Positions 4,552 through 32,253 of a stretch of DNA of 35,210 bases are shown here, piece after piece. How positions within the stretch are numbered: the stretch's first letter is position 1; every line of letters begins with the position of its first letter. The notes beneath the pieces were generated by a model, which searched no databases, was not told the origin of the DNA, and worked only from the letters and a program-made list of their open reading frames with translations. The DNA lies in IMG/VR virus record IMGVR_UViG_3300039309_000020, positions 1 through 35,210 of that record. One strand, written 5' to 3'. This DNA comes from a virus. The position numbers and the translations under genes were made by a program.

Positions 4552-4802
4552 GAGGCGTAAGTAGTTGGGCAAAGGAAGTCTATGAGCGGGATAACTGGCA
4601 CTGCCGCAGTTGCAATAACACCTCTGCGTTGACCCCTCACCACCTAAAATTTCGTAGTCAAGGGGGTACTGATACACTCGATAACCTTTTGACACTTTGT
4701 TGGAATTGCCATAGAAATTTGCACGACGGATTTCTAAAGATCACAATCGATCCCGATCTCGGGACGATTCACTTCGAACGGATGAAAGGATTCAAAATAT
4801 GA
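4548..4802 (+). CDS. HNH endonuclease (84 aa)
   Basis: Minimal HNH nuclease. C-x2-C (CRSC) near residue 20, then HH in TPHHLKF, the Asn of DNLLTLC, and a second C-x2-C-H (CWNCHRNLH) form a complete zinc-supported beta-beta-alpha-metal site. Start is the ATG overlapping the Clp-like gene stop (ATGA). It is the first of several single-gene nucleases in this genome and could be a homing nuclease or a processing enzyme. Confidence 0.88.
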   Translation: MRGVSSWAKEVYERDNWHCRSCNNTSALTPHHLKFRSQGGTDTLDNLLTLCWNCHRNLHDGFLKITIDPDLGTIHFERMKGFKI

Positions 4803-4972
4803 GCGATTCACGAAGAGGCAAGAAGCAAAACGGGAACAAGAGTTATGCGGCCCGTGCCGAATGGATGGCTGGAAAGAAGATCGGACGCCGCAAGCAAATC
4901 TGGATATGGGACCGTGAGCCTGCTGCGACTGAAAACGGGCTGCCTGGAATCGGGCATTGGGAGAAGATATGA
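4799..4972 (+). CDS. Small basic phage protein (57 aa)
   Basis: Start ATG overlaps the HNH stop and its stop overlaps the next ATG. N-terminus rich in Lys/Arg, then a Trp-rich middle (RKQIWIWDRE). May bind nucleic acid, but this rests only on charge. Confidence 0.6.
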   Translation: MSDSRRGKKQNGNKSYAARAEWMAGKKIGRRKQIWIWDREPAATENGLPGIGHWEKI

Positions 4973-5139
4973 AGAAGCCCGTTCGAAAGAAAAGTGATCC
5001 TCGCCCGGAAACGATACGATATCGAGAGCATTCCAAGCAGATCGTGATTCTTGCCCGAGAGATCGTGAAATTGCGAAAACGAATAGACGATCTGGAAAAC
5101 AGTTTCAAAACACATATTGACTTTGGAGGTCATAGATGA
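4969..5139 (+). CDS. Small basic coiled-coil protein (56 aa)
   Basis: Start is the ATG at 4969, coupled to the previous stop. A basic N-terminus (KKPVRKKSDPR) is followed by a heptad-like helix (ILAREIVKLRKRIDDLE) that probably forms a short coiled coil. No family recognised. Confidence 0.65.
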   Translation: MKKPVRKKSDPRPETIRYREHSKQIVILAREIVKLRKRIDDLENSFKTHIDFGGHR

Positions 5140-5534: not shown

Positions 5535-5757
5535 TTATCTCGATTACGAATTTGTCGGAAGGATTGAGAGCGGGAAGACTTGTATCTGGGATGTAAAGTC
5601 TCGGGGCAACTCGGCTCCTCTCGGGCAAGTAAAATGGTACGATGCTTGGCGGAAGTACGTTTTCTATCCTAGCCCCAACACTCTGTTCGATTACTCATGT
5701 TTGCAAGAGATTGCTTTGTTTTGCCACACGAATACTAGGAGTCACAATGCAAGCTAA
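5524..5757 (+). CDS. Small phage protein of unknown function (77 aa)
   Basis: GTG start preceded by AGGGG at normal spacing, inside the end of the previous gene. The core WDVKSRGNSAPLGQVKWY then AWRKYVFYP resembles a recurrent small phage domain with conserved Lys-Trp-Tyr and Arg-Lys-Tyr pairs. Function unknown. Overlaps the next gene by 11 bp. Confidence 0.65.
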   Translation: MPDSYLDYEFVGRIESGKTCIWDVKSRGNSAPLGQVKWYDAWRKYVFYPSPNTLFDYSCLQEIALFCHTNTRSHNAS

Positions 5758-6115
5758 TAAAACCAAGGCGGAACGTAGTCGGGAAGCGAATGCCCGATAT
5801 TACCGGCGTCACCCGAAACGGGAACTGCTCCATAGTGCCAAACGTCGAGCTAAGGAAAAGGACTGCCAGTTCGATTTGCGAGAGACCGATTTTGAGATTC
5901 CTACGGTTTGTCCAATCTTGGGAATCCCGCTGGTTTGCGGCAAAGGGAGTATCACACCAAATAGTCCGACACTGGACCGGATCGTCCCTTTATTGGGGTA
6001 CATCAAAGGAAACGTCTGGGTCATATCCGCCAGAGCGAATTTGATGAAGAACGATGCGTCGATTCACGAATTAATAGACTTTGCAGAATGGGTAGCAAGG
6101 ACATATGGAATCTAG
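5747..6115 (+). CDS. HNH-like phage endonuclease (122 aa)
   Basis: Start ATG with AGGAG seven bases upstream; a longer in-frame ORF extends back into the previous gene without a ribosome site. The N-terminal 50 residues are a basic helix (ERSREANARYYRRHPKR). The C-terminal half has CPILGIPL, SPTLDRIVPLLGYIKGNVW and SARANLMKNDAS, the pattern of a widespread phage HNH-like zinc fold that usually reads CPxLGIPL...SLDRIDxxKGYVKGNV. Here the second half of the motif keeps Asp-Arg and Asn. Probably a nuclease or DNA-binding protein. Confidence 0.72.
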   Translation: MQANKTKAERSREANARYYRRHPKRELLHSAKRRAKEKDCQFDLRETDFEIPTVCPILGIPLVCGKGSITPNSPTLDRIVPLLGYIKGNVWVISARANLMKNDASIHELIDFAEWVARTYGI

Positions 6116-10741: not shown

Positions 10742-10926
10742 ACATGGAACAAATAATTCAAGAGTCAATAAACGCCTGTTATATAACAGAGTTCCTACGA
10801 CATGCATGGGAATATATCAAAGCACGTCGCCCTTATGAATCGATGACGTTAGCGATATTGAATGAAAAGATGTTCGATATCAGCGACATAGCCGATGGTG
10901 AAGAACGCAACCGAAGGATCAATTGA
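10738..10926 (+). CDS. Small phage protein of unknown function (62 aa)
   Basis: ATG overlaps the RNase H stop (ATGA). Helical, acidic at the C-terminus (DISDIADGEE). Its TGA overlaps the TTG start of the next gene. No family recognised. Confidence 0.6.
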   Translation: MNMEQIIQESINACYITEFLRHAWEYIKARRPYESMTLAILNEKMFDISDIADGEERNRRIN

Positions 10927-11330
10927 CTACCGCAGAGCGGGCCAAGGACAAGCGTCTCCGAGACATTTACAACACGACGCTAGAAGCACAGAACGAGCAG
11001 AAGGCAAAGCAGGATAATCGCTGTGCGATGTGCCGAAGAGACTTCGCCAGATTCACGGCGTTTCAGGATCACGAGCACAAGTGTTGCCCGCGCCGCAAGA
11101 AAAAGTTTTGCGGTAAATGTAACCGGGGACTGCTCTGTTATCCCTGTAACAAATTCGTCACAGGCATTCTGGAGAAACAGAGTGTGGATGGGAAGTTGCT
11201 TGACCCACTCTTCATGCTGGCCCGGATGACTAAGTACTTCGAATACTGGAATCCGATTCTCAAAGCGAAAGGTTGCTATGAAGAAAAAAAAGTCGCCGCA
11301 GTTTGCAAAAAGAAAAAAAGCATTCGATAG
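10923..11330 (+). CDS. Endonuclease VII-like HNH nuclease
   Basis: Recombination endonuclease VII family. The signature is CAMCRRDF, then DHEHKCCP, CGKCNRGLLCYPCNK, an HNH/zinc arrangement with two Cys pairs around the Asp-His-His site. The related T4 enzyme resolves branched DNA; free-standing relatives act as homing nucleases. The start is TTG overlapping the previous TGA (TTGA). A Lys-rich C-terminus overlaps the next gene by 53 bp. It fits either branched-DNA processing next to RecA and helicase, or homing. Confidence 0.82.
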   Translation: MTTAERAKDKRLRDIYNTTLEAQNEQKAKQDNRCAMCRRDFARFTAFQDHEHKCCPRRKKKFCGKCNRGLLCYPCNKFVTGILEKQSVDGKLLDPLFMLARMTKYFEYWNPILKAKGCYEEKKVAAVCKKKKSIR

Positions 11331-12128: not shown

Positions 12129-12285
12129 ACTGCGGGACGATCTCAATCAGCAAGTGCGAGACGAAATCGGGGATGAAGAGAATATCAAGTTCCCGAGAAA
12201 GAATCAACTTAATCTGAAATATGGGGTAATAACTCCTACCATTAGTCTTGAGGAGATTGAATTCTGGGAGAAAATATGCAATTAG
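12082..12285 (+). CDS. Small acidic phage protein (67 aa)
   Basis: ATG with GGAGG seven bases upstream, inside the end of the peptidase gene. The product is helical and acidic in the first half (EQIKESKLRDDLNQQ). A longer in-frame ORF upstream lacks a ribosome site. Unknown function. Confidence 0.6.
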   Translation: MTNISEPTAEQIKESKLRDDLNQQVRDEIGDEENIKFPRKNQLNLKYGVITPTISLEEIEFWEKICN

Positions 12286-12806
12286 GGAATTTAGTAGGAA
12301 AGATTTTTAAGAGATTAAAAGTCTTACGAATTATACGAACCCGACGAGGTGAGCGTGTTTATTCTTGTAAATGTGTCTGCGGAAAGATAACAGAAGTTTC
12401 TGAGGGAAGTCTTCTTAGTGGAAGATCGGGAAGTTGTGGATGTTTTCGTAGAGAATTACAAAGGACATTGCATTATTTACGACCATACGAACATCTCTAT
12501 CGTCATCTTTTACGCCAAGCAAAGAAAAGGAAACATCGAGTATCTATTACCTACACCGCTTTTTTACGGTTTACAAAAGTGTTACGATGCCATTATTGTT
12601 GGGCAGATATTCAATGGGTTTCACATAATCAGCATGGAGGAAGCCTTAGGTATAATCTAGATCGTGCCGACAATAAATATGGATATACCCTTAAGAATTG
12701 CGTCGTATGCTGCCCACGGTGTAATCAAGGAAAAAGCAATTCCTTTACGTATGATGAGTGGTGGAAGATGACTGAGTGCTTTCGAAAGGAAAAATCATAT
12801 GCCTGA
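12276..12806 (+). CDS. HNH homing endonuclease with N-terminal Cys-rich DNA-binding domain
   Basis: The N-terminal part has the CKCVCGK and GSCGC pattern typical of free-standing phage homing endonucleases. The C-terminal half has CHYC, LDRADNKYGYTLKNC (the Asp-Arg and Asn of the HNH site) and CCPRCNQGKSN, ending in YDEWWKM. It is about 176 aa, normal for the class. The coding sequence is much richer in A and T than the flanking genes, a common mark of a mobile intronless homing gene. It is wedged between two small genes by overlaps of 10 and 8 bp. Confidence 0.88.
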   Translation: MQLGNLVGKIFKRLKVLRIIRTRRGERVYSCKCVCGKITEVSEGSLLSGRSGSCGCFRRELQRTLHYLRPYEHLYRHLLRQAKKRKHRVSITYTAFLRFTKVLRCHYCWADIQWVSHNQHGGSLRYNLDRADNKYGYTLKNCVVCCPRCNQGKSNSFTYDEWWKMTECFRKEKSYA

Positions 12807-16098: not shown

Positions 16099-16099
16099 G

Positions 16100-16118
16100 G
16101 GTTACTGAAGGTTACTGA
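16100..16118 (+). repeat. Tandem direct repeat GGTTACTGA
   Basis: Two exact 9-bp copies (16100-16108, 16110-16118) with a 10-bp period, ending 7 bp before the -35 of promoter P3. The one-helical-turn phasing is what an activator or repressor site would show. Confidence 0.5.
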
Positions 16119-16125
16119 CGTGCCA

Positions 16126-16154
16126 TTGACCGTTGAGAAAAAGTAGGCTACTAT
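16126..16154 (+). promoter_or_regulatory. sigma70-like promoter P3
   Basis: TTGACC (16126-16131), 17-bp spacer, TACTAT (16149-16154), in a true intergenic region after the kinase-like gene. It reads toward the small genes at 16172-16689. It lacks the CTTGACAAG box of the other promoters. Confidence 0.72.
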
Positions 16155-16171
16155 TTCTAAATGGAGGGTCT

Positions 16172-16225
16172 ATGAGAGAAGCCGTGCTAACGATTGTGCG
16201 TAGGTCAAGGCGAACAGACTTCTAA
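16172..16225 (+). CDS. Possible 17-aa basic leader peptide
   Basis: ATG preceded by the very strong TGGAGGGTCT ribosome site, the same block used by the secreted-protein gene at 14465. Seventeen codons, Arg-rich at the end (RRSRRTDF), first ORF after promoter P3. Could be a leader or a functional micropeptide. Confidence 0.45.
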   Translation: MREAVLTIVRRSRRTDF

Positions 16226-16228
16226 TTT

Positions 16229-16247
16229 CCCCTCCCCCGCCCTCCCC
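16229..16247 (-). other. Potential G-quadruplex (G-rich strand is -)
   Basis: Four runs of C separated by single bases on the + strand. On the - strand this reads as four G-runs of 3 to 5 with one-base loops, the tightest parallel G-quadruplex pattern. It lies between the leader peptide and the next + gene, and 440 bp beyond the end of the - strand operon. Confidence 0.6.
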
Positions 16248-16262
16248 ATATTGTTAGGTGAA

Positions 16263-16364
16263 GTGGCACGTCGAAACAAAATCGAGCATCAGAACGAGCC
16301 GAAATCCAAATGTGTCTGGGAGGATTTATGTCACCATTCATCGAAGAACGGTTGCCCAAGATAA
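16263..16364 (+). CDS. Possible small ORF (33 aa, GTG start)
   Basis: GTG preceded by TTAGGTGA, 33 codons, basic and Cys-containing. It overlaps the next gene in another frame. Weak support beyond the ribosome-site-like sequence. Confidence 0.25.
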   Translation: MARRNKIEHQNEPKSKCVWEDLCHHSSKNGCPR

Positions 16365-16564
16365 AGATTTTCGAAGTCAAGCCGGTTGGATTGAAGTGGG
16401 GAGTCTATGAGCCTAACGTCGGCTGTGTCTTCATCGGGACGGCTGCTGAGGTCCGTGAGTACCAGAACCAGCGTAGGTCGAAAGACGAATTAAAAGTTGC
16501 CGAGCGTGGGCTCAACCCCGTAGTCTCCCGCTACGGTGCGGTCAGGGATTTACTGGCGGGCTAA
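16328..16564 (+). CDS. Small phage protein of unknown function (78 aa)
   Basis: Start chosen at the ATG with GGGAGGA six bases upstream; a Met six codons earlier lacks a site. Beta-rich first half (KIKIFEVKPVGLKWGVYEP) and a basic helix after it. Ends in TAATG with the next gene. No family recognised. Confidence 0.65.
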   Translation: MSPFIEERLPKIKIFEVKPVGLKWGVYEPNVGCVFIGTAAEVREYQNQRRSKDELKVAERGLNPVVSRYGAVRDLLAG

Positions 16565-16689
16565 TGAAGATCACCGAACAACAAAAAGCGACGATCCGAA
16601 CCGTGTGCGCTGTCATTAGCGTCACGATTCAGATCGTCGTTGGTGTTGTCGTCATTTATTTTGACAGGATTCAACTCGCCCACAAGTGA
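16564..16689 (+). CDS. Single-TM membrane peptide (41 aa)
   Basis: ATG overlaps the previous TAA. About 12 polar residues are followed by a hydrophobic helix (VCAVISVTIQIVVGVVVIYF) and a short polar tail. Possible small holin-like or membrane-active peptide. It is the last + gene of the left arm; its stop is directly adjacent to the end of the opposing gene. Confidence 0.6.
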   Translation: MKITEQQKATIRTVCAVISVTIQIVVGVVVIYFDRIQLAHK

Positions 16690-21673: not shown

Positions 21674-21991
21674 CTAGACTATCCTCGTTCCGTTTACAAG
21701 TACACCCAGATGATCTCCTGCGAGAATAAAATGATTGTTCACGAGGATCAGAGCGTCTTCACTGACGGGATTCCCGTTTACGTATATCGCATCTAGTCTT
21801 CCTCCAGAGGGAAGCCATTCAATATCCCCGTTTGCCCCCACAAAAGTTAAAACGGATTGATCTGCGGGCGGTTCAGTTGTAACTGGGATGTTCTGAATGC
21901 CCTGTACGAGTACCGTTGTAGCACCCGATTCCGCAGAGATATCTCCTCTCAATGGGAATAGGCTGGAAGGAAAAGTTTCAGAATTTGCCAA
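21674..21991 (-). CDS. Small virion-like protein (105 aa)
   Basis: Beta-rich with GATTVLVQGIQNIPV and NPVSEDALILVNNH. It sits between the HNH gene (14-bp overlap) and fibre D. Probably a tail or fibre-attachment protein; no family recognised. Confidence 0.55.
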   Translation of the reverse strand: MANSETFPSSLFPLRGDISAESGATTVLVQGIQNIPVTTEPPADQSVLTFVGANGDIEWLPSGGRLDAIYVNGNPVSEDALILVNNHFILAGDHLGVLVNGTRIV

Positions 21992-22694
21992 GGGGATTAT
22001 TCTCCATATGTTTAGAGACCTGTTTTATATGTTCTACAAAGGCGTTAACACCTAATGCAGACTTCATATAATTACAAAGATCACAACACGCACGACAATT
22101 GAAGGGCTCATATCCAATCGAATTGTCAAGCCTATCAATACCCATCCCACTTGCTTCTTGAGGAGATCGACCACAGTATCTACAAGATTGATAGATGAGG
22201 GTCTTGAATACATCAAGAGAGAGTGAAAAAGTTAACTCTCGTTTCGTGGCATCTTTTTGGTATCTGTTATAGACTAGATTAGGTCGGCATATGGCGCAAC
22301 GTTGAATGATATTGTTATGCTCACAAACTTGCGATCCCTTACAATCTTTACATACGTGTCTTTGGCGACCATGTCCGCAGATGCTTACCCCGCCGATGCC
22401 CACAGCTTTGCACTCTTTGCAACGCTGTCGATGATGATTGTGCTCACAAATCGCAGAACCCTTACAAAGTTTGCATTGCTCCTTTTGACGACTATGTTCG
22501 CAAATGCCTTTACCGCCACATTCTTTACAGGCATACCTTCTGCGATTATGTTCGCATATCCCTGCGCCTTTACACAATTTACAATAATGATGATCGACCC
22601 CATGCTCACAGATTTGTGATCCACCAGTTCCTAATTTTTTACAAATTTTACAATAGGATCTTCTAGGACCATGTTCACACGGCTTGTTTGCCAT
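21978..22694 (-). CDS. HNH endonuclease with seven tandem Cys-His repeats
   Basis: Residues 6-135 contain seven copies of a C-E/G-H-x6-C-K-x-C unit (CEHNRRRYACKECGG type). Each copy has three Cys and one His, enough for one zinc. The C-terminal 80 residues form an HNH nuclease (CRYCGR, GIDRLDNSIGYEP, CCDLCNYMKS). The repeats could read DNA modularly. It interrupts a run of virion genes and is A/T-richer than they are, so a homing insertion is likely. Its ribosome site GAAAGGCTGT matches that of neighbouring virion genes. Confidence 0.85.
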   Translation of the reverse strand: MANKPCEHGPRRSYCKICKKLGTGGSQICEHGVDHHYCKLCKGAGICEHNRRRYACKECGGKGICEHSRQKEQCKLCKGSAICEHNHHRQRCKECKAVGIGGVSICGHGRQRHVCKDCKGSQVCEHNNIIQRCAICRPNLVYNRYQKDATKRELTFSLSLDVFKTLIYQSCRYCGRSPQEASGMGIDRLDNSIGYEPFNCRACCDLCNYMKSALGVNAFVEHIKQVSKHMENNPLGKF

Positions 22695-25442: not shown

Positions 25443-25495
25443 TGGGGGAGAATCCTTTCATTATTTCTACTAATTACTTCTACTGCCCCAAGGGT

Positions 25496-25699
25496 CTACT
25501 TCTTTACCGACGGTATCGCCATCAGCGGGCGAGTCACTGCCGGGTTTACTGCTACACTCAGTGCGTTCCACTTCTCCGTCATCGCAGCGATAGTCGCTTC
25601 ATGTGCAGCGAGCCGAGAATGCAAATCTGCGATCTGGGCTGCGTGGTTAGTGACGGTGGCGGGCAATTCCGCCAGTTGATTCAGCGTTACATCAGACAT
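25496..25699 (-). CDS. Small coiled-coil protein (67 aa)
   Basis: ATG preceded by AGGGGA. A heptad helix (ATVTNHAAQIADLHSRLAAH) then a Pro-containing tail. Possibly a tail chaperone-like or attachment protein; unknown. Confidence 0.55.
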   Translation of the reverse strand: MSDVTLNQLAELPATVTNHAAQIADLHSRLAAHEATIAAMTEKWNALSVAVNPAVTRPLMAIPSVKK

Positions 25700-25709
25700 G
25701 ATTCCCCTT

Positions 25710-25886
25710 TCAAATCTCGTAATCTAGTTCGACTCTCTCACCGCCATCTTGGGCGAGACAACCGAGACCTTCAAAACCGAATGTAGTGTGCATCGTCCCT
25801 AAATTTCTAGGGACTCGCACCATTGACCGGACTGCATCAATGGCAAGGAAAACTATGATCGTAAACAGAACGAGCAACACCGTCAT
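25710..25886 (-). CDS. Single-TM membrane protein (58 aa)
   Basis: Starts at MTVLLVLFTIIVFLAI, a hydrophobic helix, then Arg residues (RSMVRVPR) and a soluble tail of Gly and acidic residues. Inside-positive charge suggests N-out, C-in. Ribosome site GGGAG upstream. Could be a small lysis accessory protein. Confidence 0.55.
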   Translation of the reverse strand: MTVLLVLFTIIVFLAIDAVRSMVRVPRNLGTMHTTFGFEGLGCLAQDGGERVELDYEI

Positions 25887-25887
25887 A

Positions 25888-25974
25888 TCACTCCCTCGGC
25901 CAAGCCATCCCATGAACCAAAGCCCAAATGAGCAGTAGCAAACAAACTACATAAACCCCGGTGTTAAAATCCAT
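25888..25974 (-). CDS. Single-TM micropeptide (28 aa)
   Basis: ATG overlaps the end of the spanin-like gene. Sequence is almost all one membrane helix (VYVVCLLLLIWALVHG) and it ends one base before the next gene's ATG. Too short for homology, but its position in a chain of membrane genes supports it. Confidence 0.5.
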   Translation of the reverse strand: MDFNTGVYVVCLLLLIWALVHGMAWPRE

Positions 25975-29860: not shown

Positions 29861-30643
29861 CTAGCAAATCGGAACATTCGTTGTCGTAACGCTCGCACCT
29901 TTCTCACTCTTCATGACACGTCCCCAGCTTCCACACTCGTTGCACTGAAAGCGGCGATAAACACGGGTGATGCATCGAGCGATTCCCCGATATTGAACGT
30001 TTGCACTTCCGCACTTCGGGCATTCGCCGCCAGTCCAGAACGTCAAATTCGGATGAATCTTCGCAAAAGGTGCTAGACGATAATAGAGTTTTTCGAGCAG
30101 GAGCACATCCATCCTGTTGTACTTGACCATCTGATTCCAGCACTTCATATCACCTTTTATGCAACCGGCCCAGAGGTCGAAGTCCGTGTGAATCTTGTGT
30201 CCAAGATCAAGCAAACCACAAAGATCGTCGAGGGAATTCGAATTGTAACGAGCGACTTCCTTGACCATTTTCTTTGTGTCAATCGTTTTGAACGGGCTGG
30301 GCGGCTTCATGCCATGAAGAATGAAACGACCTGTGGCGACTTTAATATCGAAGGAATCCCCATTATGTGCCACCAAGATATCCGCCTCGTCAAACAGATT
30401 CCACAAATCTTGTACTAGCGCCTTATCGTCATAAGAGCCTGCGGTATACCCCAGATAATCGGGCAACGCCTTTGAAATGATCTTTGGATTCCCCAGCCAT
30501 TTGCAGACAAATGTTGCTATGCAAGATTCTTGGGTGAAACGGATTACATTTTGATCCCAGCGGCCCCATGTATACCCTTGATTTGGCAGGGTCTCCAAGT
30601 CACATACCAGAATTTTAGGTTGTTGCGTTTTCGATGTATTCAA
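29861..30643 (-). CDS. DEDDy 3'-5' exonuclease with C-terminal zinc ribbon
   Basis: RNase H-like exonuclease of the DnaQ/PolB-exo type. Acids are visible: D15 and E17 in VCDLETLP, D99 in HNGDSFDIK (Asp of ExoII), and Y175-xxx-D179 in YNRMD (ExoIII), the DEDDy set. A C-terminal CPKCGSA...FQCNECGSWGR zinc ribbon follows. It is 260 aa with TTG start and AAAGGA upstream, and its 5' end overlaps the endonuclease VII gene by 29 bp. Likely used for proofreading, primer removal or mRNA/DNA end trimming; no polymerase is fused. Confidence 0.85.
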   Translation of the reverse strand: MNTSKTQQPKILVCDLETLPNQGYTWGRWDQNVIRFTQESCIATFVCKWLGNPKIISKALPDYLGYTAGSYDDKALVQDLWNLFDEADILVAHNGDSFDIKVATGRFILHGMKPPSPFKTIDTKKMVKEVARYNSNSLDDLCGLLDLGHKIHTDFDLWAGCIKGDMKCWNQMVKYNRMDVLLLEKLYYRLAPFAKIHPNLTFWTGGECPKCGSANVQYRGIARCITRVYRRFQCNECGSWGRVMKSEKGASVTTTNVPIC

Positions 30644-31078
30644 TGAGTCCTTTCAGTACCGCCGTTGAATCATTTACCTGACCTAATGCCAAATTACATG
30701 TACGACACAAGATGCCACGAATTTTTCCTGTTAGATGGTCATGGTCTGTATGCCAATAACCACGTTTATCCTTAGGCTCTGTCACTCTACAATTTTGGTT
30801 TGCACAACATCGTCCTTGAGCATTGAATAGGGTTTCCCATTCATCTACAGTCATGTGGTATTTCGTTCTCAACTTGTTACGACGGGTACGAATTCGCTTT
30901 CCCTCAGGAGTATTTGACAACCCATCTATAAAGTTATTCTTCAACTGAGTGCGTCGTATACGAGAACATTCCAAAGAACATGACACGTACTTCTTCGCTT
31001 CTGATACTCGAACATCAAATTCTTTACCGCATATTACACAGGCTTTGATTACCCTAAATTTTTTCGTCCCGCCCCCAT
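30615..31078 (-). CDS. Endonuclease VII-like HNH nuclease with possible -1 frameshift
   Basis: The C-terminal part is an endonuclease VII domain (WHTDHDHLTGKIRGILCRTCNLALG). In the same frame upstream, without any ATG, GTG or TTG except a GTG at 30986, the sequence encodes CVICGKEF...CSLEC, the usual zinc motif of phage HNH nucleases. An ATG at 31078 with AGGGA opens seven codons in another frame, ending in A AAA AAT, which on a -1 slip enters the nuclease frame (about 154 aa fused). Either a programmed frameshift, an error in the A6 run, or a truncated gene starting at 30986. Promoter P5 lies just upstream. Confidence 0.75.
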
Positions 31079-31095
31079 TCTTTCCCTACACTCCC

Positions 31096-31124
31096 AGATT
31101 ACCAAAGTACCGTTACCTTGTCAA
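31096..31124 (-). promoter_or_regulatory. sigma70-like promoter P5 with CTTGACAAG box
   Basis: On the - strand TTGACA (31124-31119), 17-bp spacer, TAATCT (31101-31096). Preceded by GTT, so GTTCTTGACAAGG is identical to P4. It reads into the endonuclease VII gene. Confidence 0.75.
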
Positions 31125-31127
31125 GAA

Positions 31128-31388
31128 CTATTTTTGATCCGTAACCTTTACGTCTCCAGACCCTTTGATTGCAACAGATAGCTTGTTCACTCCGTATAAA
31201 GAACCGCCCGCAGTCACGAACATAGCCGCTCCACCAAGATCGGGGAGGGAATGGTTTAGGAGCACGAGATACGTTACCCAACCGAGAGTTGCCAGAATGG
31301 TAAACCCTGCGAGTACCCTGCTGGCGCTGGCCGACCCGTCTGCCTCTGAGAAAGTGCTACGTAAAAACTTTAGAATTTTTTCTTTCAT
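31128..31388 (-). CDS. Holin-like membrane protein (86 aa)
   Basis: ATG overlaps the previous stop (ATGA). A basic N-terminus, then a TM (VLAGFTILATLGWVTYLVLL), a Gly/Ala-rich second hydrophobic stretch (GAAMFVTAGGSLYGV) and a charged tail. The size and two-segment layout fit a class II-type holin or small phage membrane protein. It is far from the lysozyme gene but in the same direction. Confidence 0.6.
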   Translation of the reverse strand: MKEKILKFLRSTFSEADGSASASRVLAGFTILATLGWVTYLVLLNHSLPDLGGAAMFVTAGGSLYGVNKLSVAIKGSGDVKVTDQK

Positions 31389-31750
31389 AGAGGAAGCTCC
31401 GTTTCATATCCCATCATCCCGCTCTGAAAGTTCGCCAGACTCGATTGCACATTCTGTAAGACATTCTGAGCGTTCTGAGCATATGCCTGTAATCCGCCCT
31501 GAACGTTGCCGCCCGTGGCCGTTCCCCATGGATTCGGAAAATCGCCGACGTATGGAGTATATGGAATGGGGTTAGGCTGCGGTACGCTGGGTTGTGGTAC
31601 GAATACAATCTTCTCCTGCGTGCCTTTCTCTGCGTGCGACTTCTGAATGACTTCCAATGCGATCTTCAATGCTCCAGCGGCTTGCTGTAGCGCCTCAATC
31701 GCCTTCGCCTGTAACTCGACAAACTCTTCCAAATTCTTCATTCTTGCCAT
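31385..31750 (-). CDS. Phage protein of unknown function (121 aa)
   Basis: AGGAGG before the ATG. Helix at 5-40 (LEEFVELQAKAIEALQQAAG), a Pro-rich linker (QPSVPQPNPIPYTPY), then Gln/Asn-rich sequence. Likely a tail or assembly protein; unknown. Confidence 0.55.
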   Translation of the reverse strand: MARMKNLEEFVELQAKAIEALQQAAGALKIALEVIQKSHAEKGTQEKIVFVPQPSVPQPNPIPYTPYVGDFPNPWGTATGGNVQGGLQAYAQNAQNVLQNVQSSLANFQSGMMGYETELPL

Positions 31751-32224: not shown

Positions 32225-32253
32225 AGAATACGCCCTTTAGTAATCCTTGTCAA
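32225..32253 (-). promoter_or_regulatory. sigma70-like promoter P4 (- strand), divergent from P7
   Basis: TTGACA (32253-32248), 17-bp spacer, TATTCT (32230-32225) on the - strand. CTTGTCAAG spans 32246-32254. It reads into the hydrolase-like gene. Confidence 0.78.

Follow-up and report, generated by a model that had tools for sequence, protein, structure and literature searches.

We consider it probable that, on the minus strand of the window (the whole 35,210-nucleotide stretch of viral DNA analysed here), a free-standing homing nuclease gene of the endonuclease VII type (F-CphI/DHHRN-like) has inserted at the 5' end of a DNA-polymerase exonuclease gene, separating the coding body from its promoter, and that the nuclease's own start has been lost, is hidden by a one-base difference or was misassembled. 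The preliminary description of the locus had proposed that the nuclease is expressed through a regulated -1 frameshift on an A AAA AAT heptamer. Frameshifting is possible, but we find no support for it as a programmed event. Nothing unusual is required if the start was lost by mutation or misread in the contig, or if a weak near-cognate start is used. The parts of the locus are the following:

31096-31124, minus strand: promoter TTGACA-N17-TAATCT, one of the six sites of the TTGACAAG family (from a motif count and from relatives)
31083-31087, minus strand: AGGGA, Shine-Dalgarno-like, before ATG 31078 (from the sequence)
31049-31078, minus strand: mini-ORF of nine codons, MGAGRKNLG and a stop, which includes the heptamer (from the sequence)
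31072-31076, minus strand: GGGGG, which matches the GGNGG class (from the sequence, by the criteria of PMC4066793)
31058-31064, minus strand: A AAA AAT heptamer, in the frame of ATG 31078 (from the sequence)
31047-31055, minus strand: AGG GTA ATC, the codons at which relatives start (5, 4 and 3 ahead of the first Cys)
30615-31058, minus strand: endonuclease VII (F-CphI/DHHRN-like) frame, read after the heptamer, with its stop at 30617-30615 (PF02945, phrog_2914)
30966-31040, minus strand: CVIC...CSLEC zinc-finger-like motif, N-terminal in the nuclease (from the sequence and from relatives)
29861-30643, minus strand: DNA-polymerase exonuclease subunit (phrog_403), starting at TTG 30643 with AAAGGA

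The nuclease itself is ordinary. Its frame is intact over 147 codons, with no stop inside (translation of the -1 frame, 31058-30618: FRVIKACVICGKEF...YVSCSLEC...). Its assignment to the endonuclease VII family, as first proposed, is borne out by the matches to PF02945 (residues 62-144 of 147, E 2.7e-20) and to phrog_2914 (residues 5-144, E 3.6e-27), and the catalytic DHHRN residues (D105, H106, H108, R114 and N122) are all present and invariant in alignment A1. Relatives with solved structures include T4 endonuclease VII and Hpy99I. The Endo VII motif lies at the C terminus, which in the published tree is the arrangement of the endonuclease clade with F-CphI and not of the resolvase clade (PMC6083498). 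F-CphI, from cyanophage S-PM2, resembles the window nuclease in this C-terminal motif with its D, H, H, R and N residues, in an N-terminal CxxC...CxxC and in being a small phage gene adjoining a conserved gene (PMC6083498). It differs in that the neighbour in the window is a polymerase exonuclease and not psbA, that no intron was recognized nearby by Rfam, and that the window nuclease has no in-frame start codon. A group I intron-encoded endonuclease was indeed considered and rejected, as Rfam gave no match to a group I intron RNA in 30300-31500 with E values of up to 10, nor at the gathering score in the whole window. The gene is thus a probable free-standing homing nuclease, for which homing is predicted from its sequence. 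This single 35 kb contig has five nuclease genes of the HNH or endonuclease VII type, of which it is one:

5642-6115, 10923-11330, 12276-12806, 21978-22694 and 30615-31058: HNH or endonuclease VII-type nuclease genes

The promoter just upstream of ATG 31078, which the preliminary description had already pointed out, looks real. The pattern TTGACAAG-N15-TAnnnT to which it belongs is found six times in the window, for 0.06 expected:

1012, 14353 and 32281, plus strand: TTGACAAG-N15-TAnnnT sites
32253, 31124 and 26275, minus strand: TTGACAAG-N15-TAnnnT sites

The sites at 32253 (minus) and 32281 (plus) form a back-to-back pair of promoter-like sequences. Elsewhere in the window, the C-terminal third of the ORF at 970-1782 is a long Ala/Ser/Tyr/Thr repeat (AYAASTAAYAASAS...) with 18 overlapping register copies spaced by 9, 12 or 15 nt, and four long stretches without any called gene of 100 aa (1783-2390, 4552-5135, 16099-16689 and 25443-25963) hold small ORFs with coding-like codon scores.

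The promoter at 31096-31124 probably belongs to the exonuclease gene, to judge from the arrangement in relatives. The exonuclease (phrog_403, E 2.3e-77) has its first start in the window at TTG 30643, nine residues before the conserved KIL of the family, and the gene overlaps the end of the nuclease by 29 nt. With the promoter on one side and the body of the exonuclease gene on the other, the nuclease occupies the 5' end of that gene, an address that the preliminary description had overlooked. Among the exonuclease relatives, the closest is L119, at 58% identity; there a TTGACA-N17-TATGCT promoter directly precedes the exonuclease with no nuclease, and in L014, L015 and L131 a TTGACA promoter likewise stands directly before it, again with no nuclease. 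Other relatives do carry nucleases at this address. In phage ctf1B273 (L113, MW202497), the order is the same as in the window, promoter, nuclease, polB exonuclease, and the stop TAA of the nuclease falls in codons 2-3 of the exonuclease, at the same place as the stop of the window nuclease; this nuclease is, however, an HNH_3 protein of an unrelated family, and both genes retain normal ATG starts. In L192 (IMGVR_UViG_3300018063_000007, 2140-2540), a LAGLIDADG-like gene (a weak, sub-threshold Pfam match) also occupies the 5' end of the exonuclease, whose frame likewise has no standard start codon; unlike in the window, it is fused in frame to the exonuclease's own Shine-Dalgarno sequence, TTG and KILLLDI, and a second, recoded KILLLDI-type copy follows the fusion. 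In the same contig, an ACG stands behind a strong GAGGAGG at this start-less exonuclease frame. Finally, an HNH-like gene (weak Pfam match) abuts the exonuclease in L023. The genes directly upstream of the exonuclease, scanned in 57 cases, are mostly other phage genes, and the nucleases found there are thus scattered, independent arrivals. No relatives of the exonuclease were found in bacterial genomes. Layouts similar to that of the window were also seen at other genes: an endonuclease VII-type gene overlaps the start of a tail tubular protein gene in Klebsiella phage PMBT12 (L028, 1495-1896) and that of a thymidylate synthase gene in Vibrio phage Phriendly (L031, 1501-1881).

It was tempting to define the exact join of the empty site, as ATG 31078 is in frame with the exonuclease gene and the nuclease has an AAAATT repeat on either side. 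This was given up because the native N-termini of the exonuclease vary among relatives (MAKIL, MSKPKIL, MKIL), so that the boundary of the insertion cannot be fixed. ATG 31078 could be the old start of the exonuclease, by its frame, a match that has a chance of 1 in 3.

The start region reads to the letter as the preliminary description had it. On the minus strand, the promoter (31124-31096) is followed by AGGGA (31087-31083) and by ATG 31078, from which the codons are ATG GGG GCG GGA CGA AAA AAT TTA GGG TAA (31078-31049), with A AAA AAT in frame and the stop as the third codon past it. The -1 frame opens after the TAG at 31088-31086, is free of stops from 31085 to 30618 and encodes the CVIC...CSLEC motif, as had been noticed, a motif that relatives also have. 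Equally accurate was the remark that this frame has no start codon ahead of the zinc motif: its first ATG, GTG or TTG is GTG 30986, within the motif. By codon usage, the nuclease frame scores above both other frames from about 31078 onward (+7.3 versus -10.6 and -22.7).

The place of the missing start can be looked for in relatives. An in-frame start is present in each of the 46 relatives that carry the zinc motif, with no shift needed in any, and in the 33 other relatives the motif is never found in another frame. These relatives are distant (26-49% identity), none being close, so that the count shows that the family needs no shift and not that this phage uses none. The commonest distance from the start to the first Cys is three codons (15 of 46). 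L005, L006 and L199, the closest as regards the zinc module, which is nearly identical to that of the window, start four to five codons before it, with an N-terminal sequence of the (V/I)VIKxCVICGKEFD type. At these very positions the window has AGG, GTA and ATC, each of them close to a start codon without being one. S-CBS4 had seemed start-less from its annotation, but its frame begins with an ATG. As for the site itself, blastn and megablast returned no close relative in phages, a search of viral contigs with the exact pattern gave only a 21-mer that matches by chance, in a gene unrelated to this one, and a pattern permitting any length of the A run matched no close relative.

We favor a one-base difference near the start as what would have removed or hidden the ordinary start of the nuclease, be it a real mutation or an error in a metagenome contig. 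An indel had been named from the outset as the main alternative to frameshifting, and a lost or misread start does fit, given the near-miss codons and the A6 and G5 homopolymers that are both present in the start region. In the window, most of the other genes appear intact, which counts against a contig error. In the case of a real difference, little or no nuclease would be made, and the A AAA AAT run would be incidental to a start region that is rich in lysine. The absence of stops in the nuclease frame means that, if the start was lost, either the loss is recent or the frame is still in use. The inserted nuclease would use the promoter of the exonuclease, and the exonuclease would now be translated from TTG 30643, inside the last codons of the nuclease.

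Because near-miss codons occupy the start positions of relatives, a mutation or a contig error at the start, or weak near-cognate initiation, accounts for the locus no less well than frameshifting does. Near-cognate initiation would most likely use ATC 31049, which overlaps the stop of the mini-ORF (TAATC) and would be coupled to its termination, or else ACG 31067 behind GGGGG. The former stands three codons before the first Cys, the position preferred in 15 of the 46 relatives, and the latter has the strongest Shine-Dalgarno energy among the candidates in the nuclease frame (-8.4, from GGGGG). We hold this to be unlikely, as such starts are weak (ATA is cited in PMC12864459 as reaching up to 1% of ATG) and ATC 31049 has little Shine-Dalgarno support (-1.8). 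It is highly improbable that the true gene is the 123-codon ORF beginning at GTG 30986, which would lack the N-terminal half of the zinc motif. The catalytic domain does lie wholly downstream of this codon, and relatives such as L002 have no zinc motif, but the start would fall inside the motif with almost no Shine-Dalgarno sequence (-1.9), and both the codon score and the homology reach upstream past the first CxxC.

Slippage by -1 on A AAA AAT, programmed or tolerated, would yield a MGAGRK(N/K)FRVIKACVIC... fusion and keep the nuclease low. What speaks for it is the heptamer in frame with a stop close behind, an ATG 31078 backed by a decent Shine-Dalgarno sequence, and a lead of 13 residues before the first Cys, which is within the range of the family. 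In addition, Shine-Dalgarno-like stretches upstream are known to stimulate -1 shifts, and GGGGG (31076-31072) fits the GGNGG stimulator class at a legal spacing (PMC4066793); the stimulation is putative, and makes low-level slippage possible. Heptamers of low efficiency, A AAA AAC for example, are also in use in IS elements. The locus thus shares with dnaX and the IS3-family frameshifts an X XXY YYZ heptamer and an upstream Shine-Dalgarno-like stretch, but it differs from them in lacking a downstream structure, in its AAU third codon and in the lack of conservation. Indeed, the RNA at 31057-30960 folds at -14.4, against a mean of -16.9 for shuffled sequences (z +0.91), and the RNA at 31092-31000 is also unstructured relative to its shuffles (z +1.43). 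The main rule of efficient bacterial -1 motifs is the cognate re-pairing of the A-site tRNA, which the tRNA for AAU does not achieve, and AAU-ending heptamers are not among these motifs (PMC4066793). A homopolymer indel would lead one to expect the heptamer just as much, and the presence of the heptamer alone is weak evidence, because among the 8-codon stretches of this phage's genes about 2.5% carry an in-frame X XXY YYZ (1.8% with Y = A/T, 0.5% for A6) and A AAA AAN occurs in frame six times in its other genes, three of these being A AAA AAT. The continuous frame in relatives, which the preliminary description had itself set against its proposal, is seen in 46 of 46, though none is close. 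Taken with the absence of structure and the AAU ending, this leaves the claim of frameshift control without support, and we regard slippage at this site as quite unlikely. The fuller version, in which a homing nuclease captured the promoter, the Shine-Dalgarno sequence and the start codon of another gene and is held low by -1 slippage on GGGGG and A AAA AAT, appears very unlikely; no precedent for translational-frameshift control of a homing endonuclease was found in the literature searched. Transcriptional slippage generally needs A runs longer than six, and it was set aside for this run of six A.

In relatives of T4, homing nucleases are under the control of promoters, hairpins and autorepressors (PMC2988022). 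If it were true, frameshifting would add a new throttle beside these controls. As for the insertion that we favor, homing nucleases that are unrelated to one another recur, from phage to phage, at the 5' end of one replication gene; they apparently ride on the promoter of this exonuclease gene and, in a single case, on the start codon. Such a set makes it practicable to study how parasites of this kind are expressed while the host gene stays functional.
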